Source: Actinomycetes bacterium
GTDB lineage: Bacteria > Actinomycetota > Actinomycetes > Mycobacteriales > Mycobacteriaceae
Direction of reading: 5' to 3'
DNA: 13,838 nucleotides
Assembly: GCA_023388385.1 (NCBI GenBank)
Contig: JAEWGK010000087.1
Coordinates: 1-13,838, forward strand
The notes below the pieces were generated by a model, which saw only the letters and a program-made list of their open reading frames with translations, searched no databases and was not told where the DNA came from. Of this stretch, positions 1-13,838 are shown piece by piece. Both the position numbers and the translations under genes were made by a program. Every line of letters begins with the position of its first letter. Positions within the stretch are counted from its first letter, which is position 1.

Positions 1-251
1 GCCGACAGCGCCAGCTCCTGCGCGTTCTCGTCGACCTCCGGCAGCTCGCGGCCGTGCGCCGACAGCGCCTCCGGGTCGTCGACGCCGGCGACCCACGTGC
101 CGTCGCGGGTGATGCCGACCGGCACGACGTCGTACCGTGCACGATCCAGGTGCGCCATGACGGCGCCCGCGGAGATGCAGGAGACGCTGTGCTCGGGGCT
201 GGCGCCGCCGTAGACGACGGCGACGGTGATGCGGGTGTCCGGCGAAGTCAT
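1..251 (-). CDS. ddl: D-alanine--D-alanine ligase, N-terminal part (cut by window edge)
   Basis: This ATP-dependent cytoplasmic enzyme joins two D-alanines for the peptidoglycan stem peptide. Only the first 83 codons are in the window; the rest lies beyond position 1. The visible N-terminus reads ITVAVVYGGASPEHSVSCIS, the first-domain GG-x-SxEHxVS motif of Ddl, followed by VPVGITRDGTW, also usual for the family. The ATG at 251-249 has no Shine-Dalgarno upstream. A TACGAT hexamer ends six bases before it, so a leaderless mRNA is possible. The gene follows gpsA on the same strand after a 123-bp gap, as in mycobacteria, where ddlA lies next to gpsA. Identity is seen directly in the motif; the catalytic C-terminal half cannot be checked. 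Confidence 0.93.
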   Translation of the reverse strand, partial: MTSPDTRITVAVVYGGASPEHSVSCISAGAVMAHLDRARYDVVPVGITRDGTWVAGVDDPEALSAHGRELPEVDENAQELALS

Positions 252-257
252 GGGTGC

Positions 258-263
258 ATCGTA
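258..263 (-). promoter_or_regulatory. candidate -10 box of a leaderless ddl promoter
   Basis: Read on the minus strand the hexamer is TACGAT, which fits the TANNNT -10 pattern of actinobacteria. It is followed by six bases and then the ddl ATG, so transcription would start at or next to the start codon. The absence of any Shine-Dalgarno in front of ddl supports this. No clear -35 is visible. This is inference from spacing only. Confidence 0.4.
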
Positions 264-331
264 CAAGCACGCCCGACGCGGGCGGGGCGCCGCGTGACGG
301 GAGTGACGCCCGTCATAGCCGCAGCACCCGT

Positions 332-367
332 CGTCGCGCAGAACCCGGGCGTCGCGCAGGACCCGGG
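332..367. repeat. 18-bp tandem duplication downstream of gpsA
   Basis: Two adjacent 18-bp units (332-349 and 350-367) differ at one base. Each begins CGTCGCGCA and ends ACCCGGG. The pair lies between the gpsA stop codon and ddl. Just to its left, TGACGGG (295-301) and CCCGTCA (309-315) can form a 7-bp stem with a 7-nt loop; no T-tract follows, so a terminator role is uncertain. Confidence 0.85.
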
Positions 368-374
368 TATCGTG

Positions 375-1373
375 CTACTCCGCCTTGCGGGAGCGGCCCA
401 TGAGCATGCGGATGGCCTCGTCGACCGACAGCCCCTCGTGGCACACGGCGCGCACGGCGGCGGTGATGGGCATCTCCACGCCACGGGCCTCCGCCAGATC
501 CGACACCGACGTCGAGGAGATGACCCCCTCCGCCACCTGGCCGCGCGTCGCATGCTGCGCCTGCTCGACCGTGTCGCCCTTGCCCAGGCGCAGGCCGAAC
601 GTGCGGTTGCGCGACAGCGGCGAGGAGCAGGTGGCCACCAGGTCGCCAAGGCCCGCCAGGCCCGCGAACGTCTTCTCCTGCGCGCCGGCGGCCGTGCCCA
701 GGCGGGTGATCTCCGCCAGCCCGCGCGTGATGATGGTCGCCAGCGTGTTCTCCCCCAGCCCCTGGCCCGTCGCCATGCCGCACGCCAGCGCGATGACGTT
801 CTTGCATGCCCCGCCGATCTCGCAGCCGACCACGTCGACGTTCGTGTACGGCCGGAAGTAGGGCGTTGCGACGGCCGCCTGGACCGTCTTCGCCCGGTTC
901 TCGTCCTCGCAGGCGATGACCGTCGCGGCGGGCTGCTCGGCGGCGACCTCTCGGGCCAGGTTCGGCCCCGACAGCACCGCGACGCGATCCGTGGCGACGC
1001 CCGCGACCCCCGTGATGACCTGGCTCATGCGCCGGCCCGTCGACCGCTCGATGCCCTTCGCCAGGCTGACCAGCGTGGCCTCCGGCTCGACCAGCTCCCG
1101 CCACGTCTCGAGGTTCGCGGAGAGCGTCTGCGACGGGACGCCGAGGACCACGATCTCAGCGCCGTCGAGGGCCGCCTCCGCGTCGGCCGTGGCCGTGATG
1201 CCCGATGGCAGCGCAAGGCCCGGCAGGTAGTCCGAGTTCTCACGCATGATCTGGATGCGGCGGGCCTGCTCCTCCCGCCGGGACCACAGGCTCACGGAGT
1301 TGCCTGCGTCGGCGAACACCTTCGCCAGGGTCGTTCCCCACGAGCCCGCGCCCATCACAGCCACTTGCACCAT
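375..1373 (-). CDS. gpsA: NAD(P)-dependent glycerol-3-phosphate dehydrogenase
   Basis: GpsA reduces dihydroxyacetone phosphate to sn-glycerol 3-phosphate in the cytoplasm, feeding phospholipid synthesis. The 332-residue protein has the usual length. The Rossmann motif [10 protein letters not shown] is at residues 8-17, SLAKGIE near 103-109, [10 protein letters not shown] at 135-144, the family signature [14 protein letters not shown] at 187-200 with the presumed catalytic Lys191, and [19 protein letters not shown] at 237-255. The frame stays open for about 112 more codons upstream, but that stretch is low-complexity repeat sequence. I chose the ATG at 1373-1371 because the conserved N-terminus [13 protein letters not shown] starts there and GGAAGGAG lies six bases in front. 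ddl follows on the same strand. The promoter is not clear; the leader holds several tandem repeats. Confidence 0.97.
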
Positions 1374-1399
1374 CGTCGGCTCCTTCCGCCGTTTCCGCT

Positions 1400-1435
1400 C
1401 GTATCCGTCGTGTCGGCCGTATCCATCGTGTCGGT
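1400..1435. repeat. 18-bp tandem duplication in the gpsA leader
   Basis: Units 1400-1417 and 1418-1435 read CGTATCCGTCGTGTCGGC and CGTATCCATCGTGTCGGT, with two differences. They lie 27 bp upstream of the gpsA start and run directly into the next tandem array. Confidence 0.85.
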
Positions 1436-1518
1436 CGCGGCCAGGGGTGCCGGTCGCGGCCAGGGGTGTCGGTCGCGGCCAGGGGTGTCTGGGCGCGGCC
1501 AGGGGTGTCTGGGCGCAT
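1433..1518. repeat. 19-20-bp tandem repeat array (four units plus a partial)
   Basis: Four head-to-tail units lie at 1433-1451, 1452-1470, 1471-1489 and 1490-1509, with a truncated fifth at 1510-1518. All share the core CGCGGCCAGGGGTG; the first three begin GGT, the fourth begins TGGG and is one base longer. There are no spacers between units, so this is not a CRISPR array. It sits in the region upstream of gpsA that would be its mRNA leader if transcription starts farther out. Confidence 0.92.
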
Positions 1519-1576
1519 CGGAGGGCCGAGCCGACCGTCCGGTCGCCTGGCTTCCCGATAGCGCAGCCTCCCAGCC

Positions 1577-1624
1577 GGTCGCCGGGGTTCCGGCCACGCC
1601 GGTCGCCGGGGTTCCGGCCACGCG
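1577..1624. repeat. 24-bp tandem duplication
   Basis: Two 24-bp units (1577-1600 and 1601-1624) begin GGTCGCCGGGGTTCCGG and differ only at the last base. A more diverged relative begins at 1541 (GGTCGCCTGGCTTCCCG). The region is non-coding. Confidence 0.88.
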
Positions 1625-1745
1625 GCGAGGCGGATGCCCGTGACGCCGACCGCCGTTTCCCACAGCATACGGTCCACCGGGGTTTCCGGCGGGCCGACGC
1701 AACTCGCACCAGCCGCCAGAACCCACCCGACCGCGCCGCATCAGG

Positions 1746-1842
1746 GGGGGTTAATGCTCTTTAGCGGGAGGAACAGGTCACGGAGGGGCCCGATCCCGGG
1801 CTAATCCTGACCCGTTCCTCCCGCTAAAGGCCGTTAACCCCC
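1746..1842. repeat. Palindromic intergenic element, copy 1
   Basis: The left arm (1746-1780) and right arm (1808-1842) are 35-bp inverted repeats that match at 31 positions. Outermost is GGGGGTTAA, then a variable five-base block, then TTTAGCGGGAGGAAC, and an inner GGTCA. The 27-nt centre (1781-1807) can form its own hairpin: GCCCG (1788-1792) with CGGGC (1797-1801). The element lies between the divergent gpsA and mutT1 genes. A second copy is at 6737-6831; the right arms of the two copies differ at one of 34 positions. I see no target-site duplication and no open reading frame inside. It may be a REP/MITE-like dispersed repeat or a structured RNA or protein site; the identity is unknown. Confidence 0.93.
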
Positions 1843-1967
1843 ACCGATGGCACCCCGGAAGACCATGGCGCCCCTGGACTGGCCCCGTCATCCGGAACCA
1901 GCCCCGTCGCTTCCGCCGCCACCGACCCCGCCACCGCCGTCGCCGCCTGCGGCGCCGCTGCCCGCCA

Positions 1968-1973
1968 TATACT
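1968..1973 (+). promoter_or_regulatory. candidate -10 box for mutT1
   Basis: TATACT stands out in a GC-rich stretch and matches five of six bases of TATAAT. It would give a transcript with a leader of roughly 45 nt before the mutT1 start. No -35 is recognisable about 17 bp upstream, so support is limited to this hexamer and its position. Confidence 0.35.
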
Positions 1974-2024
1974 TCGGACGAGAGCCGCACCCCAGCCCGC
2001 GACCGAGGAGATGACCCCTTCCGC

Positions 2025-3008
2025 ATGGCCATGCACGAGAACGACAAGGACACGGTCAACGACACGTCCCTAACCGGCCGCCATCGCACCATTGGGTCGA
2101 AGCCCGGCCGAGACTTCACCAAGCCGACCTTCGCCGCGGGCGCCGTCCTGTGGCGGGGCGGCGCGGACGACCGGGAGGTCGCCGTCATCCACCGCCCGTC
2201 CTACGACGACTGGTCCCTGGCCAAGGGCAAACTTGACCCGGGCGAGAACCTGCCCGCCACCGCCGCACGCGAGATCGAGGAGGAGACGGGCTACTCCGTC
2301 CGCCTGGGCAAGCTGCTCGGCCACGTCGACTACCCGGTCACGGGCCGCACGAAGGTGGTCTGGTACTGGACGGCTGAGGTCCTCGACGGCGAGTTCACGC
2401 CGAACGACGAGGTCGATGAGCTGCGCTGGGTCTCCATCGACGAGGCAGCGGAGCTGCTGTCCTACGACCTCGACGTCGAGGTCCTGGAGAAGGCCCGCAA
2501 GCGCCTGTCGGCGGAACCGGACACCCGCATCATCTACGTCCGCCATGCCCGCGCGCATTCCCGCAAGAACTGGAGCGGCGACGACGATCTGCGACCGCTG
2601 GACAAGAAGGGCCGCCGACAGGCGGAGCTGTTGGTCTCCCAGATCGCCCCGTTTCGCCCGGACCGCATCTACGCCGCGGAGCCGGACCGCTGCTCGCAGA
2701 CCGTCGCCCCGCTTGCCGCGGACCTCGGCTTGGAGACCATCGTCGACGATCTCTTCGGCGACCGCGCGTGGCTCGGCGCGATGGTCGAGGCCCAGGATCG
2801 CTTCATGGACGTCGTCGCGGAGCGCGGCGTCAGCGTCATCTGCTCGCAGGGCCTCATCATTCCGGACATGATCGCGTGGCTGTCGGCGCGCGGCACGCTG
2901 CCGCTGGAGGAGATCGACAGCAAGAAGGGCTCCATGTGGGTCCTCGGCTTCGAGGACGGCGTCCTCACCACCGCCGACTACTACGCCAGCGCCCTGCCCG
3001 TGAAGTAG
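2025..3008 (+). CDS. mutT1: MutT1-type Nudix hydrolase with C-terminal histidine-phosphatase domain
   Basis: Mycobacterial MutT1 sanitises oxidised nucleotides such as 8-oxo-dGTP and also cleaves diadenosine polyphosphates. The 327-residue protein has the same two-domain plan. The Nudix domain (about 35-160) carries a complete Nudix box from Gly68 to Tyr90, with the pattern GX5EX7REUXEEXGU. The histidine-phosphatase domain (about 167-325) has IIYVRHARAHS, with nucleophile His174, and an AEPDRCSQT arginine motif around Arg222. Where active members usually have a second histidine (CSHG), this protein reads CSQG (Gln275). The ATG at 2025 is used; an in-frame ATG at 2031 is possible. GAGGAG at 2005-2010 is rather far upstream. 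Its place beside hupB and leuDC matches Rv2985. Confidence 0.93.
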   Translation: MAMHENDKDTVNDTSLTGRHRTIGSKPGRDFTKPTFAAGAVLWRGGADDREVAVIHRPSYDDWSLAKGKLDPGENLPATAAREIEEETGYSVRLGKLLGHVDYPVTGRTKVVWYWTAEVLDGEFTPNDEVDELRWVSIDEAAELLSYDLDVEVLEKARKRLSAEPDTRIIYVRHARAHSRKNWSGDDDLRPLDKKGRRQAELLVSQIAPFRPDRIYAAEPDRCSQTVAPLAADLGLETIVDDLFGDRAWLGAMVEAQDRFMDVVAERGVSVICSQGLIIPDMIAWLSARGTLPLEEIDSKKGSMWVLGFEDGVLTTADYYASALPVK

Positions 3009-3021
3009 CCGCGGCATCGCC

Positions 3022-3087
3022 TGACGACGAACGGGGCCGGGCCCGCGATCCTCGAGCGGATCGCGGGCCCGGCCCCGTTCGTCGTCA
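3022..3087. terminator. Perfect 30-bp inverted repeat, likely bidirectional terminator
   Basis: Arms 3022-3051 and 3058-3087 are exact reverse complements around a 6-nt loop, TCGAGC. The repeat lies between the convergent mutT1 and hupB and includes the hupB stop codon (3085-3087). The stem is extremely GC-rich. No T-run follows on either side, as is common for actinobacterial terminators. The inverted repeat is seen directly; termination is inferred from its convergent position. Confidence 0.8.
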
Positions 3088-3426
3088 CGCGTCGAAGCCG
3101 CTGTGCGAGGAGCTGCGCCGGACGCAGATGGAGCCCGCGTCGCGCGGGCGCCCTTCCTTCACGACGGAGCGGAAGTATCCTCCCGGCCGAAACGCCGGGG
3201 TGCGGGTCGCGGGCACGGGCACGGTATGGCCGGTGTGGGGGTTGCGGGCGGTGCGGGGCGCCCGATCGCGGGCCTCGAACGTTCCGAACCCCATGATGGT
3301 CACGGACTCGCCCGCGGCGACGGCACCGACGATGATGTCGAGGGTGTTCTCGACCGCGTGGGCGGCCGCGGTCCGGGGGATGGAGAGGCGCTGCGAGAGC
3401 TCCTCCACGAGGTGTGCCTTGTTCAT
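3085..3426 (-). CDS. hupB: HU-family histone-like DNA-binding protein
   Basis: HU is a small dimeric nucleoid protein that bends and compacts DNA. The first 90 residues form a complete HU fold, MNKAHLVEELSQRLSI through YFRSVVKEG. The family signature is at residues 46-65 (GFGTFEARDRAPRTARNPHT), including the DNA-intercalating proline at 63. The C-terminal extension of about 20 residues (RDAGSICVRRSSSHSGFDA) is short, serine-rich and has one cysteine. It lacks the long lysine/alanine-rich tail of mycobacterial HupB. The start ATG at 3426 has only a distant GGAAGG (spacing about 12). The gene lies downstream of leuD on the same strand, 169 bp away, so it probably has its own promoter. The stop codon lies inside the terminator-like palindrome. 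Confidence 0.94.
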   Translation of the reverse strand: MNKAHLVEELSQRLSIPRTAAAHAVENTLDIIVGAVAAGESVTIMGFGTFEARDRAPRTARNPHTGHTVPVPATRTPAFRPGGYFRSVVKEGRPRDAGSICVRRSSSHSGFDA

Positions 3427-3595
3427 TGGGGACGAGCCTTCCGCGTCGGGGGTGGGGGCGTCGGGACGCCGTCCTCGGGACGGGGCCGTCGGCCCGCCCC
3501 GCGGCGTCCGTCACCCGAACATAATGTGCCGGAGGCGATTAGGCCATACTCGCCGGAAGCTCTCAGGCTCCGCGCCATCTGCCCTTATGCACGTT

Positions 3596-4189
3596 TCATG
3601 AAAGCGTCCGGGGCTTGAACGACGGGCGGGAATCCTCAAAAGCACGGATATCCGACTCATTTCGCAGCGTCAGCGAAATGTCGTCCAGGCCCTCCATGAG
3701 CCGCCAGCGCGTGTAGTCGTCGACGTCGAACCGCAGCACCACGTCACCGGCGGCGACGGTGCGCGCCTCCAGGTCGACGGTGACCTCCATGCCCGGGTCC
3801 TCCTCCAGCAGCTTCCACAGCAGTTCGATGTCGCCCTGCTCCATCCGGCCCGCGAGCAGGCCCGCCTTGCCGGAGTTGCCGCGGAAGATGTCGGCGAAGC
3901 GGGAGGACAGGACGACGCGGAAGCCGTAGTCCATGAGCGCCCAGACCGCGTGCTCGCGGGAGGAGCCGGTGCCGAAGTCGGGGCCGGCGACCAGGACGGA
4001 GCCGGTGCGGTAGGCATCCTGGTTCAGCACGAAATCGGGGTCGTTCGTGCGCCAGTTGTTGAACAAGCCGTCCTCGAAGCCCGAGCGGGTGACGCGCTTC
4101 AGGTACACGGCCGGGATGATCTGGTCCGTGTCGACGTTCGAGCGCCGCAACGGCACCCCGACGCCGGTGTAGGTGGTGAACTTCTCCAT
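3596..4189 (-). CDS. leuD: 3-isopropylmalate dehydratase small subunit
   Basis: LeuD pairs with LeuC to isomerise 2-isopropylmalate to 3-isopropylmalate, the second step specific to leucine synthesis. The 197-residue length is normal. Visible family motifs are [13 protein letters not shown] (18-30), [17 protein letters not shown] (69-85), which shapes the swivel-domain active site, and [18 protein letters not shown] (95-112). AAAGGA lies eight bases before the ATG at 4189. leuC ends 27 bp upstream on the same strand, so the two are co-transcribed. The stop codon overlaps a small palindrome, TTTCATGAAA (3594-3603). Nothing in the gene looks damaged. Confidence 0.97.
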
Positions 4190-4216
4190 GATCGATGTCC
4201 TTTCCGGGGTGCGGGC

Positions 4217-5677
4217 CTAGACGCCGACCGGCTCAGTGGCCGGATCCAGGTCGGCGGGGGACGCGAGGTGGCCGGCGACGGCCGTGGCCGCGGCGACGGC
4301 GGGGCTGACCAGGTGAGTGCGGCCGCCCTTGCCCTGGCGGCCCTCGAAGTTGCGGTTCGAGGTGGACGCGCAGCGCTGGCCCGGGGTCAGCTGATCCGGA
4401 TTCATGCCCAGGCACATGGAGCAGCCGGGCATGCGGAACTCGGCGCCGGCGGCGGAGATGACGTCCGCCAGGCCCTCCTCCTCCGCGAGCTGCCGGACAC
4501 GAGCAGAGCCGGGGACGACGAGCATGCGCACGCCGTCGGCGATGCGGCGGCCGCGCAGGACCTCGGCGACGGAGCGCAGGTCCTCGATGCGGCCGTTAGT
4601 GCAGGAGCCGACGAAGACGACGTCGACGCCGATCTCGCGCATCGGGGTGCCGGGCTCGAGGTCCATGTACTCCAGGGCGCGCTCGGCGGCGATGCGGTCG
4701 GCCTCGTCGGTGAAGTACTCCGGGAACGGGACCTCGTCACCCAGGGCGACGCCCTGGCCGGGGTTGGTGCCCCAGGTGACGAACGGGGTCAGCGCGGAGC
4801 CGTCGATGTCGACGACGGTGTCGAACTCGGCGTCGTCGTCGGTGCGCAGGGAGTCCCAGTACTCGACGGCGCGGTCCCACTCCTCGCCCTGCGGGGCGTG
4901 GGGGCGGCCCCTGAGGTAGTCGTACGTCGTCTGGTCCGGGGCGATCATGCCCGCGCGGGCACCGGCCTCGATGGACATGTTGCAGATGGTCATCCGCGCC
5001 TCCATCGACAGCTTCTCGATGGCCTCGCCGCGGTACTCGATGACGTGGCCCTGGCCGCCGCCGGTGCCGATCTTGGCGATGATGGCCAGGATCAGGTCCT
5101 TCGACGTCACGCCGGGCTGCAGCTCGCCGGAGACGTTGACCGCCATGGTCTTGAACGGCTTGAGGGGCAGCGTCTGCGTGGCCAGCACGTGTTCGACCTC
5201 GGAGGTGCCGATGCCGAACGCCATCGCGCCGAACGCGCCATGGGTGGCGGTGTGGGAGTCGCCGCAGACGACGGTCGTGCCCGGCTGGGTCAGGCCCAGC
5301 TGCGGGCCGACGACGTGGACGATGCCCTGCTCGATGTCGCCCATCGGGTGCAGGCGGATGCCGAACTCCTCGGCGTTCTGCCGCAGCGTTGCGATCTGGG
5401 TGCGCGACGTCGGCTCGGCGATGAGGTTGATGGCACCGCCGGCGATGCCGGTGTCGGTCGGGACGTTGTGGTCCTCCGTGGCGATGGTCAGGTCCGGGCG
5501 GCGGACCTGGCGGCCGGCGAGGCGGAGGCCGTCGAACGCCTGCGGGGACGTCACCTCGTGCAGCAGGTGGAGGTCGATGTAGATGAGATCGGGCTCGCCG
5601 TTCTCACCCTGCGTGACGACGTGATCGCGCCACACCTTCTCGGCGAGCGTCTTGGGGGCCGCGTCAGCGGAGCTCAT
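4217..5677 (-). CDS. leuC: 3-isopropylmalate dehydratase large subunit
   Basis: LeuC carries the 4Fe-4S cluster of isopropylmalate isomerase and acts with LeuD in the cytoplasm. The 486-residue protein has the three cluster cysteines of the aconitase family: Cys359 in VGSCTNGR, then Cys419 and Cys422 in [11 protein letters not shown]. The 60- and 3-residue spacing is that expected of LeuC. Other conserved stretches are [27 protein letters not shown] (138-164) and [17 protein letters not shown] near 444-460. The ATG at 5677 follows GAGGTG five bases away. It is the first gene of leuCD and lies opposite the divergent iclR gene. A CATAAT hexamer about 165 bp upstream overlaps the operator-like repeat in that spacer, so repression by the neighbouring regulator is likely. 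Confidence 0.98.
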
Positions 5678-5835
5678 GGGTCACCTCGTGGTTGGTCGGA
5701 CTGGGCTGGGCCATGCCGGGGCCGGGTCGGCCGGCACGGCGGGCATCGCCGTCATCGGGGCCATCGGGAGCGGGGCGGCGGCCGCGCCGGGCTCCGCGCG
5801 GGGGCCGGGCGGGTGACGTCGCAACGCAACCCCAT

Positions 5836-5852
5836 ATCCCAGATTATGGGAT
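5836..5852. promoter_or_regulatory. candidate IclR/LtbR operator between leuCD and iclR
   Basis: ATCCCA (5836-5841) and TGGGAT (5847-5852) are perfect inverted repeats around GATTA. Read on the minus strand the site contains CATAATCTGGGA, which is close to the LtbR consensus I recall from C. glutamicum (about CAYATAGTGGGA); this recollection should be verified. The site lies between the presumed -35 region and the -10 box of iclR and covers the candidate leuC -10. A regulator bound here could block both promoters. Confidence 0.6.
5843..5848 (-). promoter_or_regulatory. candidate -10 box for leuCD
   Basis: On the minus strand the bases read CATAAT, a five-of-six match to TATAAT, in the AT-richest part of the spacer. 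Use of it would give leuC a leader of about 160 nt. The -35 position (around 5866-5871) is not a good match. It overlaps the inverted repeat proposed as operator. Confidence 0.4.
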
Positions 5853-5854
5853 GC

Positions 5855-5860
5855 TAGTAT
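5855..5860 (+). promoter_or_regulatory. candidate -10 box of a leaderless iclR promoter
   Basis: TAGTAT matches the TANNNT pattern and is followed by six bases and then the iclR ATG at 5867. No Shine-Dalgarno precedes that start. The arrangement matches the one in front of ddl and suggests a leaderless message. It is inferred from spacing and hexamer only. Confidence 0.5.
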
Positions 5861-5866
5861 CATGGC

Positions 5867-6622
5867 ATGAGACAGACTAGCACACGGGGCGACGCCCCCG
5901 AATCGGCCCCCGCCGGCGCCGGAGCCCCCGCCAGCGGCATCAAGGTGCTCGACCGATCGGTGCTGATCCTCACCACCGTCGCCGACGGCCCGTGCACACT
6001 CACGGAGCTGTGCGACCGCACCGGCCTGCCCCGCGCCACCGCCCACCGACTGGCGACGGCGCTCGAGGTCCACCGCCTGCTCGCGCGCACGCCCGACGGC
6101 CAGTGGACCGCCGGCCCGGGGCTCGCGGATCTCACGCCGGTCGCCTCGGATCTGCTTGCCGACGCCGCCGCCCATGTCCTGCCCAAGCTCATGGAGACGT
6201 CGGGCGAGTCGGTCCAGATCTACCGCCTCACCGGCGACACCCGCACGTGCATCGCGTCGCTCGAGCCGGCCTCGGGCCTGCGCAACACCGTGCCCGTCGG
6301 CTCGCGGATGCCGCTGACCGCCGGCTCCGCCGCCCACGTGTTCCTGGCCTACGGGCCCGAGTCCCTGGCCGCGCACATCCTGCCCGGCGCCGACTTCGAC
6401 GAGGCCGAGCTCGCCCGTGTCCGCGAGCAGGGCTGGGCCGAGTCCGTCGGCGAGCGCGACGCGGCGCTGGCGTCCATCTCCGCGCCCGTCTTCGACCCGT
6501 CCGGCGAGATGACCGCGGTGCTCAGCATCTCCGGGCCCGTCGAGCACCTCACGCCGTCGCCGTACCGGGCGTGGGGCGCCGAGGTCCTCGCCGCCGCGCG
6601 CGACATGGGGGCCCGGCTGTAG
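5867..6622 (+). CDS. IclR-family transcriptional regulator, probable leucine-biosynthesis repressor
   Basis: The 251-residue protein has an N-terminal disordered stretch (1-23). A winged helix-turn-helix follows at about 26-85, with TLTELCDRTGLPRATAHRLATAL as recognition region. The IclR ligand-binding domain runs from about 95 to the end, with typical motifs GSRMPLTAGSAAHVFLA and ASISAPVFDPSGEMTAVLSISGP. It is divergent from leuCD, as Rv2989 is in M. tuberculosis and ltbR is in C. glutamicum, where LtbR represses leuB, leuCD and the trp genes. That role is therefore likely here, but it is inferred from position and family. An operator-like repeat overlaps its own promoter, so autoregulation is plausible. 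The ATG at 5867 lacks a Shine-Dalgarno and may be translated from a leaderless mRNA. Confidence 0.92.
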   Translation: MRQTSTRGDAPESAPAGAGAPASGIKVLDRSVLILTTVADGPCTLTELCDRTGLPRATAHRLATALEVHRLLARTPDGQWTAGPGLADLTPVASDLLADAAAHVLPKLMETSGESVQIYRLTGDTRTCIASLEPASGLRNTVPVGSRMPLTAGSAAHVFLAYGPESLAAHILPGADFDEAELARVREQGWAESVGERDAALASISAPVFDPSGEMTAVLSISGPVEHLTPSPYRAWGAEVLAAARDMGARL

Positions 6623-6642
6623 CTCCGGGGCTGTAGCTCCGG
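6615..6642. repeat. 14-bp tandem duplication spanning the iclR stop codon
   Basis: GGCTGTAGCTCCGG occurs twice without a gap (6615-6628 and 6629-6642). The iclR stop codon TAG is inside the first unit, so the duplication repeated the 3' end of the gene without changing the protein. Confidence 0.85.
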
Positions 6643-6926
6643 GGCGTGGGGCGCGCGGGGCGCGGGGCGGGCACGCGTTCCCGCTTACCCCGCGCACCGG
6701 CTACACCGCGGACGGCGGAATGAGGCCTCCGAATGAGGGGTTAACGTGCTTTAGCGGGAGGAACGGGTCAACGACGGCCGGGAAAACGGCCGATTGGTGA
6801 CCCGTTCCTCCCGCTAAAGGGCGTTAACCCCCCCCGCGGTGCGCCGGGCCGCCCCCGGGCAGGCCGGGGGTGCGACCGGCACGGGCCTGGCCCGGACACG
6901 GATGGGGGCGGGCGCGCCCCACCCCT
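6623..6926. other. 304-bp non-coding spacer between convergent iclR and the permease gene
   Basis: It holds the second 14-bp duplication unit, a very G-rich run (6640-6672), copy 2 of the palindromic element (6737-6831), and a GC-rich tail with CCGGGCC (6844-6850) facing GGCCCGG (6889-6895). No gene is supported. The convergent position suggests that transcripts from both sides end here, with the palindrome as the strongest possible stem. Confidence 0.75.
6737..6831. repeat. Palindromic intergenic element, copy 2
   Basis: Arms 6737-6770 and 6798-6831 are 34-bp inverted repeats with 32 matches. Outermost is GGGGTTAACG, then a short mismatched block, then CTTTAGCGGGAGGAAC and GGGTCA. The centre (6771-6797) is 27 nt, the same length as in copy 1 but unrelated in sequence. 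It forms an inner hairpin from CGGCCG (6775-6780) and CGGCCG (6787-6792) around GGAAAA. The element lies between convergent iclR and the permease gene. See copy 1 at 1746-1842; the function is unknown. Confidence 0.93.
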
Positions 6927-8660
6927 TCACGCCCGGGCGGACGCGCGGCGGTCCGTCAGCACGGCGGCCAGGACGCCAAGGGCGACCAGGCAGATGGTCG
7001 GGCCGAGCGCCATCCAGGGGGCGCGGGTGAGGTAGCCGGTGGCCTCGTTGAGCACGACGCCCCACTCCGGGCTGTCGTGAACGGCGCCGACGCCCAGGAA
7101 CCCGAGCGCCGCAAGCGCCAGCGCGTTGTGGGCGATGCGGCCGACGGCGTGCCGCACGGTCGCGGGCACCGTGACGGGCAGGACGTGGTGGCGCAGCAGG
7201 TGCCACCTCGACGCACCCATGACCTCGGCGTAGCGGTGGTGGCCGGTGCTGCGGGCCTCCTCCGCGACGGCGGCGCAGTGGGCGGCCAGCGGAATCCAGC
7301 CGCCGAGGACGACGGCGATGGCCGCGGTCCATGTCGACGCCCCGAAGACGCCGGCGAGGATGAGGCCGATGAGGATGGACGGCATGGCGTTGAGGGCCTC
7401 GCCGACCTGCTGCACCCACCGCCCCATGTGGCCGAGGACAACCCCCAGCACGGCGCACACGGCCGTCACGAGGACGGCGACGCCGATGGAGTACAGGGCG
7501 CCGTCGGCAAGCCGCGCCCACAGATCGCGACCGAGCTGATCCGTGCCCAGGGGGTGCCCGGCGGACGCGCCGGCGAGCCTGTCTGCCGGGTCGATCGACG
7601 CGTCGCGGAACAGCCCGGCGAACACCAGGACCAGCGGCATGAGCGCGATCCACGCCCAGGCCGCCGACGGCCCCCGCGACGGCGCCCGAGCGCCCGCGAC
7701 GCCCGCGACGTCGCCGTCCAGCGGCGCGAGCAGCCACCGGCGCAGGAAATGCGTGAGCAGCCCGACGATGGCGCCGAGGACCAGCACGATGGTCACGGCG
7801 GCCTGGATGACCGGGATGTCCTGGTCCCGGGCGGCGGCGACGACGGTGCGTCCGAAGCCCGGGATGTTGTAGGTGACCTCGACCGCCGCCGTCGCGGTGA
7901 CGGTGCCGGCGAAGTACAGCGCCAGCAGCGGGATGGTCGGGATGAACGCGCGGCCGAGCAGGTGCCGGGCGATGGTGCGCGGCGCGACGCCGTTGATGCG
8001 CCAGGACTCGACCCACGCTTCACCGCACGCCGCGTCGGCGGAGATGAGCAGCACGCGGCCGTACATGCCGCCGGCGGCGACGGCCAGCGCGATGACCGGC
8101 AGCACCATGTGCATCGGCCCGGCAAACCCGGAGACGGGGAACCACCCGAGTTGCAGGGCGAACACCCACATGAGCACGACGGCCAGCACGAAGTCGGGCA
8201 GCGCGGACAGCCCGGCGAGGATGGTCGCCGCCGCTCCCCCGGGCCGGCGCCCGTGGGCCGCCGCGGTGAGGCGGGGCGCGACGACGGCCGCGGCGATGAG
8301 GGTCGACACGATGAGCGAGACGACGGTGAGCGACACCGAGATGCCCAGACCCCCGACGGCGGCGCCCATCGCGGACTGGCCCTGGTCGACCCAGGACGGG
8401 CCGAAGTCGCCGCGCAGGGGGCCGGTGAACCACCCGGCGAGGGACTCCCACGGGGTTGCGGGCAGGTCGAAGCCCTCACGGATGCGGGCCAGCAGCTCGG
8501 GGGTCGCCTCGCGCTCGGCCTGGCGGGCGCGCAGGACCGACAGGGCGGGTTCGCGGCCGGTGAACCACGGGAGCATCGTCGTCAGCAGGGAGCCGACGAG
8601 GACGGCGCCGACGGCGACGGCGACGGGCCCGGCGCCGGCCCGGATCCGCGTGCCCGTCAT
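6927..8660 (-). CDS. ABC transporter permease, natural fusion of DppB-like and DppC-like subunits
   Basis: This membrane protein would form the whole translocation channel of an Opp/Dpp/Nik-type importer. Its 577 residues contain two permease units in tandem. The N-terminal unit (about 10-310) is DppB/NikB-like, with an EAA loop around 214-236 (EAWVESWRINGVAPRTIARH) and the following ALYFAGTVTATAAVEVTYNIPGFG. A linker of about 25 residues (314-335) rich in Ala/Gly/Arg follows. The C-terminal unit (about 336-570) is DppC/NikC-like, with HPLGTDQLGRDLWARLADGA at 369-388, a second EAA loop near 478-495 (AEVMGASRWHLLRHHVLP) and LGFLGVGAVHDSPEWG. Most relatives encode these as separate ~300-residue proteins. 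The start overlaps the upstream stop as ATGA (8657-8660), indicating translational coupling to the binding protein. It is the last gene of the operon. Confidence 0.94.
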   Translation of the reverse strand: MTGTRIRAGAGPVAVAVGAVLVGSLLTTMLPWFTGREPALSVLRARQAEREATPELLARIREGFDLPATPWESLAGWFTGPLRGDFGPSWVDQGQSAMGAAVGGLGISVSLTVVSLIVSTLIAAAVVAPRLTAAAHGRRPGGAAATILAGLSALPDFVLAVVLMWVFALQLGWFPVSGFAGPMHMVLPVIALAVAAGGMYGRVLLISADAACGEAWVESWRINGVAPRTIARHLLGRAFIPTIPLLALYFAGTVTATAAVEVTYNIPGFGRTVVAAARDQDIPVIQAAVTIVLVLGAIVGLLTHFLRRWLLAPLDGDVAGVAGARAPSRGPSAAWAWIALMPLVLVFAGLFRDASIDPADRLAGASAGHPLGTDQLGRDLWARLADGALYSIGVAVLVTAVCAVLGVVLGHMGRWVQQVGEALNAMPSILIGLILAGVFGASTWTAAIAVVLGGWIPLAAHCAAVAEEARSTGHHRYAEVMGASRWHLLRHHVLPVTVPATVRHAVGRIAHNALALAALGFLGVGAVHDSPEWGVVLNEATGYLTRAPWMALGPTICLVALGVLAAVLTDRRASARA

Positions 8661-10150
8661 GACCGCGCGGTCTCCACGGTCACGAAGTAGCGCTCCATCG
8701 GGTCGAGGTGGACGTCCTTCACGTCGCGCGTGCCGACGTGGGAATGCTCGAAGCTGATGGGCACGACGACGCCGGAGGCGACGAGCTCTCCGGCGATCTC
8801 GGCGGCGCGGCGCAGGCGGCCCTCGTCGTCGCCGAGCCCCGCGGCCTCCTTGATGCGGGCGTCGACGGCAGGGTCGCAGTGGCGGGACAGGTTGTAGCCG
8901 CCGTCGCAGGAGTAGTCGGACTCCAGGTAGGCGACGGGGTCGGAGGCGCCGATCATGTAGTTGCGGGAGCCGATGACGGCGTCGAATTCGCCGTTCATGA
9001 GCTGCGGCTCGAGAGCCTCGAACTCACCGGTGACGACCTCGACGTCGAAGCCGGCGGCGCGCAGCTGCTCGGCGACGACGGAGGCGACCTCGGGCAGCTC
9101 GGGGCGGTCGGTCCAGGTGGCCAGGCGGACGGTGCCGCGGCCCTCGCCGTGTGCGGCGAGCGGCTTCGGGTCGATGTCGGCCCACTTCTGCTCGGGGTTG
9201 AAGACGTGGCCGTCGGCGGCGGTGGCGTGGCCCTCGTAGATGGTGTCGACGATGAGGCCCTCGTCGATGGCGTCGGCGGCGACGGTGCGCATGGCCTCGT
9301 CGGCGAAGATGCCCTTCGAGGTGTTGAGGTTGAGCAGGACACCGCGGGTCAAGGTGTCCTCATTGACATCGGCGTCGCCAAGGTCGGCGAGCTGGGCGAC
9401 GGGCAGGGCCTGGGCGATGTTGACGTCGCCGGCGCGCAGGGCGTTGGCGCGGGTGCCGGCCTCGGGCATGAAGGTGACGTCGAGGCCCGCGGCACCGGGC
9501 TCGCCGCCCCAGTAGTCGGTGTTGGCGTCGGCGGTGAAGCCGTTCGCGCCGTCGACCGCGACGATCTTGTAAGGGCCCGTGCCGTGGCCGACGGGGTCGG
9601 GGTTCTCCCCGCCGTAGGCGGCCTCGGAGAGGATGACGGTGCCGGGGTCGGTGAAGCGGCGCACCAGGATCGGATCGTCGACGTCGGTGGTGACGGTGAG
9701 CTCGCGGTCACCCGTGGCCTCGAAGGTGAACTCGGCGTCGCCGAGGCCCTCGGGGCGGGTGGCGGACTCCGCGGCGTTGCGCAGCGCGGTGGCGGCGGCC
9801 TCGGCGGTGAGCTCGGTGCCGTCGTGGAAGGTGACGCCCTCGCGGAGGGTGAACACGGCGGTGCGCTCGTCGGGGGTCTCCCAGCTCTCGGCGAGGGCGG
9901 GGACGACCTTCGCGTCCTCGTCGACGTTGACCAGGGTCTCCGCGACGCCGGTGCGCGTGTTGATGAGCGCGTCGTCCGAGTACGGCGACAACGAGGCGAC
10001 GGGCTGGAACGCCATGGCGAAGCCGATGCGCTCGGAGGCGTCGCCGGAGCCCTCCGCGCCCTGCGTGAAGCAGCCGCCGAGGGTGAGGGCGGTGCCGGCC
10101 GCGACCGCGATGGCGGCGGCCCGGCGGACCCGGGTGCTGGTGGGGATCAT
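8657..10150 (-). CDS. Lipoprotein solute-binding protein of an Opp/Nik/opine-type ABC importer (SBP_bac_5)
   Basis: The 497-residue protein captures the substrate outside the membrane for the adjacent permease. Residues 1-26 are a lipoprotein signal with RVRR, a hydrophobic stretch and the lipobox TLGGC; Cys27 would be lipidated. Family 5 binding-protein hallmarks are VVPALAESWE (82-91), VTFHDGTELTAEA (106-118), GTGPYKIV (190-197) and DPVAYLESDY (404-413). Cys415 and Cys425 could form a disulfide. The same frame stays open far upstream, but that part is a shadow of the MFS and ATPase genes. The ATG at 10150 is preceded by AGGAGA and overlaps the MFS stop (ATGA). The ligand could be a peptide, nickel complex or opine-type metallophore; sequence alone does not decide. 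Confidence 0.94.
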   Translation of the reverse strand: MIPTSTRVRRAAAIAVAAGTALTLGGCFTQGAEGSGDASERIGFAMAFQPVASLSPYSDDALINTRTGVAETLVNVDEDAKVVPALAESWETPDERTAVFTLREGVTFHDGTELTAEAAATALRNAAESATRPEGLGDAEFTFEATGDRELTVTTDVDDPILVRRFTDPGTVILSEAAYGGENPDPVGHGTGPYKIVAVDGANGFTADANTDYWGGEPGAAGLDVTFMPEAGTRANALRAGDVNIAQALPVAQLADLGDADVNEDTLTRGVLLNLNTSKGIFADEAMRTVAADAIDEGLIVDTIYEGHATAADGHVFNPEQKWADIDPKPLAAHGEGRGTVRLATWTDRPELPEVASVVAEQLRAAGFDVEVVTGEFEALEPQLMNGEFDAVIGSRNYMIGASDPVAYLESDYSCDGGYNLSRHCDPAVDARIKEAAGLGDDEGRLRRAAEIAGELVASGVVVPISFEHSHVGTRDVKDVHLDPMERYFVTVETARS

Positions 10151-11553
10151 TCGGTGTCTCCTGTCGGTCGGGTTGAGGGGGAGGAAGCTCGTGCGGCGGT
10201 CGTGCCCGCGGCGGGCGCGGAGTGGCGGCCGTCGTGCGCGGCGCGGGGGTCGCCGCGTGCCGCGTCGCGTGACGACGTCCCGGGCGCTGTCCCGGCGTGG
10301 CGCAGCGCAATGCGGCGCAGGCCGGCGGCGGAGGCGCACAGGAGCACGGCCATGACGGTCCACGGCAGCGCGGCGGCGGGGCCGGGAGTCGCGGCGGCGT
10401 CGAGCAGGTCGCCGAGGATGGTGGAGACGACGAGCACGGCCAGGCCGCCGGCGGTGTTGAGGAAGCCGTAGTAGCTGCCCAGGTCCCGGTTGCCGCCGAT
10501 GTCCCCGACAAGATCGCGGGCGACGGGCACGGCGATCATGTCGCCGAGGTTGAGCAGCAGGACGAACAGCAGGGCGGGCAGCAGCGCGACGGCGCCGGAC
10601 AGGTCGAAGGGCGCGGCAACGGCGACGACGGCGAAGGACAGCGCCATCGCGCCGAATCCGGCGGTGAGCGCCGCGGGGGCGCCGGCGGCGGCCGCCCGCC
10701 GGTGGACGGGGCCCTGCAGCGCGATGCCCCAGATGGAGGCGACGGCGAAGAACCAGCCGAGCAGGGCGTCGGAGCCGGTGGCGCGGCGCAGCTCCACGGG
10801 CAGCGCAAGGTAGAGCTGGTTGTGGGCGACCAGGTACGTCGAGTACAGGGCGGCGAAGCCCAGGAAGGTGCGGTTGCGCAGGACGGCGCCCCACGACGCG
10901 AGCACGGAGGCGGGGCGGACGGGGCCCGCGCCACCCTCCGGCACGCCCGGGTCGGCGCCGGCGCCGCGCCCGATGCGGCTGCGCGACAGCATGACGGCGT
11001 GGGTGGCGAAGATGACGGCGAAGACGGCGGCGCCGGCCAGGCACACGGCCGTGAATCCGACGGGGATGAGCGCGGCGCCGAGGACCGGGCCGACGAGCAC
11101 GCCGATGCGCGACCACGCCGCGTCGAGGGCGAAGATGCGCGAGCGGGTGTCGCGTCCGGCGCGCTCCAGGTGCAGCCCCTCCATCGCCAGGGTCGACTCG
11201 ACCGCGGGCGAGAACAGGGCCGCGGCGAAGCCGATGAGCACGACGCCGACGACCATCGTCGTCACGCCCTGCGCCATGCCGGCGACGAGGAAGCCCGCGA
11301 TGCGCAGGGCGACGCCGACGAGGAGGATCGGCCGGGGGCCGAAGCGGTCCGACAGGCCGCCGCCAAGGAAGAACAGGCCCTGCTGGCTGAACGTGCGCAG
11401 GCCGAGCACCAGGCCGATGGCCGCGCCGGACGCGCCGAGCGTGCCGGCCATTTGGACGGCGATGAACGGCACGACCAGGTAGAAGCCGATGTTGAACAGC
11501 ATCTGCGTCAACAGCAGCACCTGGACCGGGGCGGGCAGCCCCCTCATGCTCAC
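10147..11553 (-). CDS. MFS transporter (12-TM, DHA1/MdtH-like) inside the ABC importer operon
   Basis: This is a proton-driven membrane transporter, most likely an exporter. The 468-residue protein is hydrophobic throughout. MFS motif A is at residues 64-75 (GGGLSDRFGPRP) after GLRTFSQQGLFF, a combination that resembles E. coli MdtH and similar efflux proteins. The last 40 or so residues are a hydrophilic Ala/Arg-rich tail. I use the GTG at 11553, which overlaps the ATPase stop as GTGA; an ATG two codons later is an alternative. GGGAG lies eight bases in front of the GTG. Its stop overlaps the binding-protein start. Its position among importer genes suggests that it exports what the ABC system re-imports, or a related compound, as CntE does for staphylopine; this is inference. 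Confidence 0.92.
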   Translation of the reverse strand: MSMRGLPAPVQVLLLTQMLFNIGFYLVVPFIAVQMAGTLGASGAAIGLVLGLRTFSQQGLFFLGGGLSDRFGPRPILLVGVALRIAGFLVAGMAQGVTTMVVGVVLIGFAAALFSPAVESTLAMEGLHLERAGRDTRSRIFALDAAWSRIGVLVGPVLGAALIPVGFTAVCLAGAAVFAVIFATHAVMLSRSRIGRGAGADPGVPEGGAGPVRPASVLASWGAVLRNRTFLGFAALYSTYLVAHNQLYLALPVELRRATGSDALLGWFFAVASIWGIALQGPVHRRAAAAGAPAALTAGFGAMALSFAVVAVAAPFDLSGAVALLPALLFVLLLNLGDMIAVPVARDLVGDIGGNRDLGSYYGFLNTAGGLAVLVVSTILGDLLDAAATPGPAAALPWTVMAVLLCASAAGLRRIALRHAGTAPGTSSRDAARGDPRAAHDGRHSAPAAGTTAARASSPSTRPTGDTE

Positions 11554-12230
11554 GGGGCGAGCTCCCGGGCCGCGTCGGCGAGCAGGCGGGTGGCCCCGTG
11601 CGCCGGGTCGTCGAGAAGCTCCACCGGGCCGGACTCCACGCAGCGGCCGGCGTCGAGGACGGCGACGTGGTCGCAGAAGGACCGGACCGTCGGCAGATCG
11701 TGGGTGACCAGGACGACGGTGGCCTCGGCGGCGGCGAGCGTGCGCTCCAGCAGCTCGCGGGTGGCGCGGTCCAGGGCGGAGAACGCCTCGTCCGCGATGA
11801 TGAGGCCCGGCCGGGCGACGAGGGCCCGGGCGACGGCGACGCGCTGGCGCTGGCCGCCGGACAGCTCGCCCGGGCGACGGTCCAGCAGCGACGCGTCGAG
11901 GCCGAGCGAGGCGAACAGCTCCGGCAGGCGTCCGGCGGCGGCCGAGGCGGCGGCCCCTCCCCCGGCGATGAGCACGGGCTCCAGGACACAGTCACGCACC
12001 GGCATGGACGGCATGAGCGAGCTGCCCGGGTCCTGCGGGATATAGCCGATGGCGCCGGCGGGGCGCTCGATCGACCCGCGGTCGGGGGTGAGCATCCCGG
12101 TCATGACGGAGATGAGCGTCGTCTTGCCGGCGCCGGAGCGGCCGACGACGCCGAGGCGCGCGCCGTCCGGGACCGTGAACGTCACACCCTCGAGGCGGCC
12201 GTCGACGGTGATGTCATCGCAGGTCAGCAT
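11550..12230 (-). CDS. ABC transporter ATPase, short NikE/CntF/DppF-like
   Basis: This cytoplasmic ATPase would power the fused permease together with its partner encoded just upstream. The 226 residues include Walker A GRSGAGKTT (30-38), Q-loop Gln66 in YIPQDPGSSLMPSMPV, signature LSGGQRQ (123-129), Walker B LIIADEA (143-149, with EAF in place of the usual EPT) and switch His177. It ends soon after the nucleotide-binding domain, without the C-terminal extension of about 80 residues in OppF/DppF. The open frame runs farther upstream through the other ATPase gene in another frame. I chose ATG 12230 because GGAGGTG lies five bases before it and the ABC fold starts there. It overlaps the preceding gene by 17 bp and the MFS gene by 4 bp. 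Confidence 0.94.
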   Translation of the reverse strand: MLTCDDITVDGRLEGVTFTVPDGARLGVVGRSGAGKTTLISVMTGMLTPDRGSIERPAGAIGYIPQDPGSSLMPSMPVRDCVLEPVLIAGGGAAASAAAGRLPELFASLGLDASLLDRRPGELSGGQRQRVAVARALVARPGLIIADEAFSALDRATRELLERTLAAAEATVVLVTHDLPTVRSFCDHVAVLDAGRCVESGPVELLDDPAHGATRLLADAARELAP

Positions 12231-12855
12231 GATCCACCTCCGTGATGGTCCCGGCCTCGACGCGCAGGTGCCGGTCGGCGACGCGGCGGGCGACGCCCGG
12301 GTTGTGCGTGGAGACGACGACGGCGGCGCCCGTGCGTTCCGACGCTGCGACGAGAGCGTCGGCGACGGCGAGCGTCGCGATGGGGTCGAGCGACGATGTC
12401 GGCTCGTCGGCGAGGATGACGTCGGGGTCACGGGACAGCGCGCACGCGATGGCGACACGCTGGCGCTGGCCGCCCGACAGGCGCAGCGGATGGCGGCGGG
12501 CCTGCTCGTCGGTGATGCCGCAGGCGCGCAGGGCCTCATCGGCGCGCTCAGCGGAACCGGCGGCCAGCTGGACCTGGCGGCGGCAGCGCACCAGCGGGTT
12601 GAGCGAGCCCAGGGAGTCCTGGGCGACGAAGCCGACGGTGCCGTCGCGGCGCACCGTGCCCTCGACGACCAGCGGCTCGCAGACGAGGCCGGCGAGCAGG
12701 CGCAGCAGCGTCGTCTTGCCGGAGCCCGACAGGCCCGTGATGGAGATGCGCTCCCCGCGGCGGACGACGAGCTCAGGGATGGCGAGGAGGGTCGTCTCCC
12801 CTGCCGTCACCGCGGCATCCGTGACGTGGATGCACTCGGGTCCGGTGTCTGTCAT
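12214..12855 (-). CDS. ABC transporter ATPase, short NikD/CntD/DppD-like; first gene of the operon
   Basis: This is the second nucleotide-binding subunit of the importer. The 213 residues show Walker A GLSGSGKTT (41-49), Q-loop Gln79 in FVAQDSLGSLNPL, signature LSGGQRQ (126-132), Walker B VILADEP (146-152) and switch His184. Like its partner it lacks the C-terminal oligopeptide-type extension, a feature of nickel- and opine-type ATPases. The frame allows an upstream start at 12903, but GAGGAGGTG lies a few bases before the ATG at 12855 and the upstream residues are only arginine-rich. It is the promoter-proximal gene of five overlapping genes transcribed leftwards. An AT-rich inverted repeat lies about 100 bp upstream. 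Confidence 0.94.
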   Translation of the reverse strand: MTDTGPECIHVTDAAVTAGETTLLAIPELVVRRGERISITGLSGSGKTTLLRLLAGLVCEPLVVEGTVRRDGTVGFVAQDSLGSLNPLVRCRRQVQLAAGSAERADEALRACGITDEQARRHPLRLSGGQRQRVAIACALSRDPDVILADEPTSSLDPIATLAVADALVAASERTGAAVVVSTHNPGVARRVADRHLRVEAGTITEVDHADLR

Positions 12856-12955
12856 CGGCACCTCCTCAGGAGCGGTCGGCCGCCGGCGGCGGTTCCGGCG
12901 CACAACGGGCCCCGTCCGTGACGCCCGGCGGGACTATCTCGCCTGAAGACCGTAA

Positions 12956-12971
12956 TGGAAACACGTTTTCA
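12956..12971. promoter_or_regulatory. candidate operator/promoter region of the transporter operon
   Basis: TGGAAACACGTTTTCA is an imperfect palindrome (six-base arms with one mismatch around CACG) in an AT-rich patch. Read toward the operon it gives TTGAAAACGTGTTTCC; its TTGAAA resembles a -35 box, but no good -10 follows at the right distance. The half-site TGAAAA is that of actinobacterial Zur boxes, although the centre here is one base longer than the usual form. Function is inference. Confidence 0.35.
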
Positions 12972-13069
12972 ACACCACATCGGGCCGGTGCGGCACCATG
13001 CCGGGACGCATCCCACCCCACCTGCGCATTTGCGCAATTCCGCGATGATGGGTGGCGTGCCCGGCCAAG

Positions 13070-13101
13070 CCGCGCGTCCGGTCAGCCGCGCGTCCGGTCA
13101 G
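13070..13101. repeat. 16-bp tandem duplication
   Basis: CCGCGCGTCCGGTCAG occurs twice without a gap (13070-13085 and 13086-13101), exactly identical. It lies just downstream of the CPBP protease gene, in non-coding DNA. Confidence 0.9.
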
Positions 13102-13121
13102 CAGCGGGGTGCCGCGGAGGT

Positions 13122-13838
13122 TCACCCGCGGTCGGGCCGGGCGCGGCGCCCCATGTTCACCAGGCAGCCGAGGAGCAGGATGACGGCAGCGGCGTCGATG
13201 ACGAATCCGATGATGGCGCCGGCGGCCAGCACCTCGCCCGTCGCGTCGCCGACGTGGGTGGCGAACAGCTGGAAGTCGACGTTGGCGTGCCACAGCGCCA
13301 AGGCGGCGAGGCTGCGGGTCTCCAGATAGACGATGCCGGCGAACAGGCCGACGGGGATGGCGAGCAGCGACTGGTTCAGCGCATCGGCGGGCGCCATGCC
13401 AGCGGACACGTTGGTCATGTGCATGAACCCGAACAGCAGCGCCGAGGCCAGGAGGAATGCCAGCTTCGAGCGACGCGACTCCCCGGCGCGGTCGAGGATG
13501 AACTTGCGGTACAGGCCCTCCTCGCCGAACCCGATGAGCAGGGAGAGGACGAGCGCGCCGACAAGCATCGGATGGAATATGCCGCGCGCGCCGGTCTCGA
13601 TGAACACCGAGGCCATCGCCGCGATGACCGCGATGACGAGGATGCGCTGCGTCCACGCGACGACGGGTCCGAGCGGCCGCGCCGGCGTCTCCCGCTCGCG
13701 GAACCCGGAGGGCCACGGGCGGTGGCCGGCGAAGTGGCGCCGCTGGATGAACCAGACCCAGACGGCAGTGACGACCATGTGCGGGATGCCCCACCAGAGG
13801 ATGCGCGGGTCGGTGTAGCCGATGCCGTTGCGGTGAAG
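13122..13838 (-). CDS. CPBP-family intramembrane metalloprotease (probably 5'-partial)
   Basis: The family comprises multi-pass membrane proteins with a glutamate/histidine metalloprotease site; bacterial members are linked to bacteriocin self-immunity, abortive-infection-like roles and protein maturation. The three motifs are present: EEGLYRKF (EExxxR), FGFMHM (FxxxH) and HANVDF (HxxxD/N type). Several hydrophobic segments surround them. An ATG at 13778 would give 218 residues, but the frame stays open to the window edge and reads YTDPRILWWGIPHMVVTAVWVWF. That is a convincing continuation of the first membrane helix, so I take the true start to lie outside. The partner or substrate is unknown. 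The gene is on the same strand as the transporter operon, 266 bp upstream of it. Confidence 0.87.
   Translation of the reverse strand, partial: LHRNGIGYTDPRILWWGIPHMVVTAVWVWFIQRRHFAGHRPWPSGFRERETPARPLGPVVAWTQRILVIAVIAAMASVFIETGARGIFHPMLVGALVLSLLIGFGEEGLYRKFILDRAGESRRSKLAFLLASALLFGFMHMTNVSAGMAPADALNQSLLAIPVGLFAGIVYLETRSLAALALWHANVDFQLFATHVGDATGEVLAAGAIIGFVIDAAAVILLLGCLVNMGRRARPDRG

Follow-up and report, generated by a model that had tools for sequence, protein, structure and literature searches.

Two copies of a palindromic intergenic element in a Corynebacterium contig: a candidate lineage-restricted hairpin repeat of the REPIN/MITE kind

A stretch of 13,838 nucleotides from an actinomycete assembly (GCA_023388385.1, contig JAEWGK010000087.1, positions 1 to 13,838 of the forward strand; the whole stretch is referred to below as the window) carries two copies of a 95-bp palindromic element, located at 1747-1841 and 6737-6831, where an initial annotation of the sequence had seen them. 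On balance, and with moderate confidence, we read this element as a small interspersed hairpin repeat that is non-autonomous, belongs to the REPIN/MITE kind, is confined to the lineage of the Corynebacterium from which the window comes and was probably mobile at some time in its past. Small interspersed hairpin repeats (REPIN, ERIC, NEMIS, MITE) are a well-known kind of element, whilst the family found here is apparently undescribed: the initial annotation had called the element unrecognised, which holds for its sequence, with no Rfam family reaching the gathering score in the window, and fails for its kind. The host genus is supported as Corynebacterium by protein identity, the nearest protein to the NUDIX/histidine-phosphatase protein of the window being 99% identical and assigned to 'Corynebacterium sp.'.

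Structure of the two copies

Copy 1 (1747-1841) is built of a 34-bp left arm (1747-1780, forward strand), which begins with GGGGTTAA, contains the core TTTAGCGGGAGGAAC and closes at its inner end with GGTCA, a 27-nt spacer (1781-1807, forward strand) exhibiting its own apical stem, and an inverted right arm on the reverse strand (1808-1841). Copy 2 (6737-6831) follows the same plan, with a 34-bp left arm (6737-6770) and a 27-nt spacer (6771-6797) on the forward strand and the inverted right arm on the reverse strand (6798-6831); its spacer also forms an apical stem, the sequence of which is unlike that of copy 1. The arm consensus is GGGGTTAAYGNNCTTTAGCGGGAGGAACRGGTCA. The arms of copy 2 are 94% complementary, and in copy 1 a copy-specific pairing reaches 1739-1849, with 42-nt arms that are 86% complementary. 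Common to both copies is an outer helix of 10 bp (GGGGTTAAYG), followed by a joint of two poorly paired positions, then the long core helix and, at the tip, the apical stem. Upon alignment of the two copies, the left arms are identical at 30 of 34 positions and the right arms at 33 of 34, matching the four differences and one difference claimed initially, and the spacers, of equal length, are identical at 13 of 27 positions. As left arm resembles left arm and right arm resembles right arm, both copies stem from one ancestor and not from separate local inverted duplications, and they are found at two unrelated loci that lie 5 kb apart.

Arms that are nearly invariant, around a two-position joint and a spacer that vary freely as between two half-sites, could also be the recognition sequence of a DNA-binding protein (a regulator, nucleoid protein or replication protein) acting on double-stranded or cruciform DNA. 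This explanation is highly improbable: paired 34-bp arms with a structure-conserving spacer exceed the needs of a dimeric regulator, and BLAST of 242 genus genomes detected no copy, which speaks against a regulon conserved across the genus.

The outer ends of the element raise a different alternative. TTAA occurs four times in the window, in each case at an end of the element (both sides of both copies), whereas the frequency in relatives (33-49 per 400 kb) leads to an expectation of about 1.1-1.7 occurrences in the window. This distribution would suit a classical MITE whose cut-and-paste (DDE) transposon duplicates TTAA, in which case the element proper would comprise the approximately 79 bp between the TTAAs and GGGG/CCCC would be part of a preferred target. 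The self-complementary TTAA is equally well explained as a part of the arm, however, and the outer GGGG/CCCC is likewise common to both copies, such that the rare target GGGGTTAACCCC would be needed twice; as no autonomous element with such ends was found either (plasmids searched with copy 1, phages and the 242 genus genomes with copy 2), we consider a DDE origin unlikely.

Hairpin strength and spacer pairing

In a hairpin score of +1 per match and -2 per mismatch, the copies reach 24 and 28, compared with 14 for the best of 60 dinucleotide shuffles of the window. Single-strand folding with a few flanking bases included predicts one long hairpin per copy, with energies of -83.7 and -86.4 kcal/mol as RNA (flanks included) and -44.5 and -52.1 as DNA. 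Both spacers are more stable than their own mononucleotide shuffles set between unchanged arms (p 0.0165 and 0.0015, with 2000 shuffles per spacer). Palindromes scoring at least 22 number three in the 13.8-kb window (217 per Mb) versus 2.5-22.5 per Mb in six relatives (400 kb each of G362, G377, G376 and G542; 200 kb each of G511 and G478), although the window was picked for two of its palindromes and its density is no unbiased estimate.

Gene setting and the same loci in relatives

Pfam analysis of the window supports gpsA, NUDIX, HU-like, leuD, leuC and IclR genes as well as a peptide-type ABC operon that includes an MFS gene. Copy 1 lies in the divergent gap between gpsA (reverse strand) and the NUDIX gene (forward strand), with the apparent promoter of the NUDIX gene approximately 120 bp downstream of it, as judged by eye against the loci of relatives. 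Copy 2 lies in the convergent gap between iclR (forward strand) and a peptide-type permease gene (reverse strand), where it occupies about the middle, the flanking stops being 115 and 95 bp away. The initial annotation was therefore correct in placing one copy between divergent and the other between convergent genes, and its argument that a plain terminator does not account for both can be strengthened: the only T-run terminator site in 1300-7100 is at 2612-2625, with none at either copy, so that a Rho-independent terminator was rejected for this reason and for the divergent position of copy 1. Insertion of copy 1 into the promoter of the NUDIX gene was also rejected, the apparent promoter being downstream, near 1970, by comparison with relatives.

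This setting bears on a further explanation, in which the hairpins are not mobile: each would be retained in place to act as a bidirectional barrier to transcription or as a site of RNase III or 3'-end processing, and would have been copied by local recombination. The position of copy 2 midway in a convergent gap would fit, as would the predicted RNA folding energies given above, the presence of another strong palindrome in the convergent gap between the NUDIX and hup genes, and the preference of a repeat from sister species, described below, for convergent gaps (13 of 21 with a rough gene caller, against 25% of intergenic length). We nevertheless regard it as possible but doubtful, given that copy 1 sits in a divergent gap upstream of the apparent promoter, that neither copy has a T-run site, and that a local function leaves near-identical arms at unrelated sites unexplained.

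Comparison with relatives was performed on 242 genomes, a genus set taken as Corynebacterium from protein identity; the host species is apparently in neither this set nor a second set of 301 genomes sampled from the family. The nearest NUDIX/histidine-phosphatase protein in the genus set is 76% identical to that of the window, and 18 of the 242 genomes match at E <= 1e-140. In 10 of 11 syntenic loci 112-236 bp separate gpsA from the neighbouring NUDIX gene, versus 651 bp in the window; the exception is L040, where gpsA is about 3.7 kb off. Downstream of iclR, all nine loci examined exhibit a reading frame of 378-435 aa starting within about 110 bases, which was MFS_1 by Pfam in the two of the nine that were tested, and the window has at this position copy 2 and the convergent ABC operon in place of an MFS-type frame. 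Both copies thus lie in lineage-specific DNA that is missing from syntenic relatives.

Distribution of the element

From two copies in one window the initial annotation had suggested a dispersed family, and this was not borne out by BLAST of the 242 genus genomes and of other sets. In genome DNA searches, where scoring was limited to three candidates per genome, the genus set gave six weak partial matches, all of which were inspected and none of which shows the arms around a spacer (two, L018 and L019, fall within one arm only), and the 301 family genomes gave three weak matches, again without a copy upon inspection of all three. A covariance model detected nothing in the 242 genus genomes (0/242), which is weak evidence given strict filters and no positive control. 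Plasmids searched with copy 1 contained no copy (two weak Shinella matches) and phages searched with copy 2 returned zero matches. In viral contigs the two-arm pattern was found 0 times, and the one-arm patterns matched 1 and 21 stretches, the former being among the latter, with no copy: 19 of the 21 were testable and all lack a complementary core close by (11 of 16 at best), the remaining two (L122, L033) end too near the match, and most look by eye like chance matches in coding DNA.

A scan of genome contigs with a two-arm core pattern identified six loci, none from Corynebacterium: four from Steroidobacter/Peristeroidobacter, one from Kribbella and one from Halorubrum. After folding and BLAST these were judged unrelated or chance, with five sharing 12-13 identical bases with the arms, hardly beyond the 11-mer that was demanded, and the Halorubrum locus giving no match. 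In the Steroidobacter/Peristeroidobacter loci (L001, L004, L005 and L006) a hairpin with arms GCGGGAGGAAC/GTTCCTCCCGC lies close to a terminator-like, GC-rich hairpin and seems to be a repeat belonging to these bacteria. Lax Rfam searches of both copies returned mostly miRNA-hairpin models, all below the gathering score.

Comparison with known classes of element

REP units carry a 5' GTAG head. Inspection of both 95-bp copies for this motif revealed neither GTAG nor CTAC, and the arms, at 34 bp, are unlike REP units. As described in PMC3116915, the REPIN is an element with conserved arms and a spacer that is kept for its length and hairpin capacity with compensatory changes. On the evidence of its two copies, the window element corresponds to this in its two conserved inverted sequences, a spacer conserved in length and pairing and not in letters, and its intergenic placement. 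REPINs are also extragenic repeats of high copy number, against the two copies seen in 13.8 kb here. MITEs, by their usual definition (see also PMC10969869), are short, non-coding, intergenic, bounded by terminal inverted repeats and devoid of a transposase. The window element is MITE-like (including the ERIC and NEMIS types) in being short, non-coding and intergenic with terminal inverted repeats, but differs in exhibiting no target duplication beyond the ambiguous TTAA, in the lack of a parent insertion sequence (IS) among those searched for, and in being known from two copies only.

Two further classes were considered and rejected. Integron attC sites have boxes of the form RYYYAAC / GTTRRRY and belong to cassette arrays. 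The ends of copy 2 (GGTTAAC / GTTAACC) do not fit this consensus on inspection, integrases not having been searched for. Tn3-type ends were dismissed by eye, as the resembling GTG is not common to both copies. Surveys of stem-loop families (PMC1590033, PMC2267715) describe species-specific repeated intergenic stem-loops and include C. diphtheriae, with a table row for initial clusters that reads 54,254, 9, 282 and 120; the window element resembles these families in general description. The accessible portion of the open-licence literature on palindromic and miniature repeats in Corynebacterium describes no such family, and one C. glutamicum IS paper mentions such repeats, in the part seen, only in general terms.

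In an interspersed repeat of REPIN/MITE kind, the arms would be recognised in trans by a transposase or another DNA-processing enzyme, which, given the lack of an evident target duplication, would probably act on the folded single strand. Copies would then persist between genes, where they are harmless, and transcription of a copy would yield a highly stable hairpin that could stop read-through or serve in the protection or processing of a 3' end; an effect of the hairpin on passing transcripts is likely on this reasoning. Should many copies exist in the host genome, they would constitute a new interspersed hairpin family in Corynebacterium, would provide strain-typing marks and candidate transcript-end elements, and would pose the question of how such repeats are mobilised in a setting apparently devoid of REP-type transposases.

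Several observations weigh against this interpretation. Only two copies are known, both in the window, and no autonomous partner or related IS was seen in plasmids searched with copy 1, or in phages and the 242 genus genomes searched with copy 2. The syntenic loci offer no clean empty site: both copies are inside longer lineage-specific stretches, so that the element may or may not have inserted alone. Symmetric boundaries placed anywhere between 6 bp outside and 12 bp inside show no direct repeat of at least 3, apart from TTAA at both copies and GTTAAC at copy 2, each self-complementary. In a consensus fold of the two sequences, both partners are changed in only 2 of 35 pairs, which alone says little. 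The Y1 REP-type transposase (RAYT; PF01797) was found in none of eight relatives, with a control positive in 5 of 14 genomes; for this reason and for the missing REP head motif, membership of the REPINs is not claimed. Finally, the repeat known from sister species is unrelated in sequence and offers an analogy only.

A dispersed palindrome in sister species

This repeat was obtained by a de novo hairpin search in G377: a 64-bp palindrome beginning AACCCACCCCGAATGCGCAGACCCACCCG, present in many copies. Matches at E <= 0.01 were found in 7 of the 242 genus genomes, at full length in G376, G377, G542, G473 and G362 (first-look candidates 59, 56, 20, 12 and 6, respectively) and as short matches only in the other two; the fragmented genome G474, which holds the best NUDIX match, gave none, and the window gave chance-level matches only. 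Eleven copies each were analysed in 400 kb of G377 and of G376 (L065-L084, L087-L106), one of the 22 being truncated at the end of its locus and two being orthologous to each other. According to a rough gene caller, which marks 75% of the sequence as coding, all 22 are intergenic, and a separate check found a coding-like frame running through none of them. The 21 copies with both neighbours lie in convergent (13), tandem (7) and divergent (1) gaps, classes that are approximate because the caller misses genes (of about 13 genes in the window 2 escaped it, and it extended gpsA too far at its start). The arms covary: over 21 copies, 8 of 29 pairs are changed on both sides, compared with a mean of 2.7 after shuffling and none of 500 shuffles reaching 8. 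Like the window element, this palindrome is dispersed, intergenic and a long hairpin; it differs in that no sequence similarity was found and in that it sits in mosaics of tandem half-units. It therefore shows only that the clade carries dispersed, structure-conserving palindromes.

A broader proposition is that, in the high-GC corynebacteria of this clade, hairpin repeats (the window element and the unrelated 64-bp palindrome) are species-specific and turn over rapidly, and that they spread without the Y1 REP-type transposase, by another mobilising enzyme acting on folded DNA. We put this forward tentatively and think it rather improbable. Another long palindrome was observed in G478 (L161:10465-10551 and L161:18859-18916), in at least two places that share the motif AATTGCGCA(G/A)A(T/C)CC, and is possibly, by eye, a distant relative of the G377 repeat.

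Other features of the window

The third strong palindrome of the window, at 3018-3091, has 34-bp arms and a 6-nt loop, is unrelated in sequence to copies 1 and 2, and fills the gap of the convergent NUDIX and hup genes, which in the loci of six relatives measures about 14-88 bp by alignment ends. Next to copy 1, the enlarged gpsA-NUDIX gap exhibits short tandem repeats at 1428-1487 and about 1578-1625, made of 19-bp units (three listed copies) and of a longer unit noticed on visual inspection. Beyond copy 2, a single 577-aa reading frame (6927-8660) with two BPD_transp_1 stretches is an apparent fusion of two permease subunits; its operon also holds the MFS gene and ABC ATPase genes, a combination that we take to recall metallophore import/export operons.

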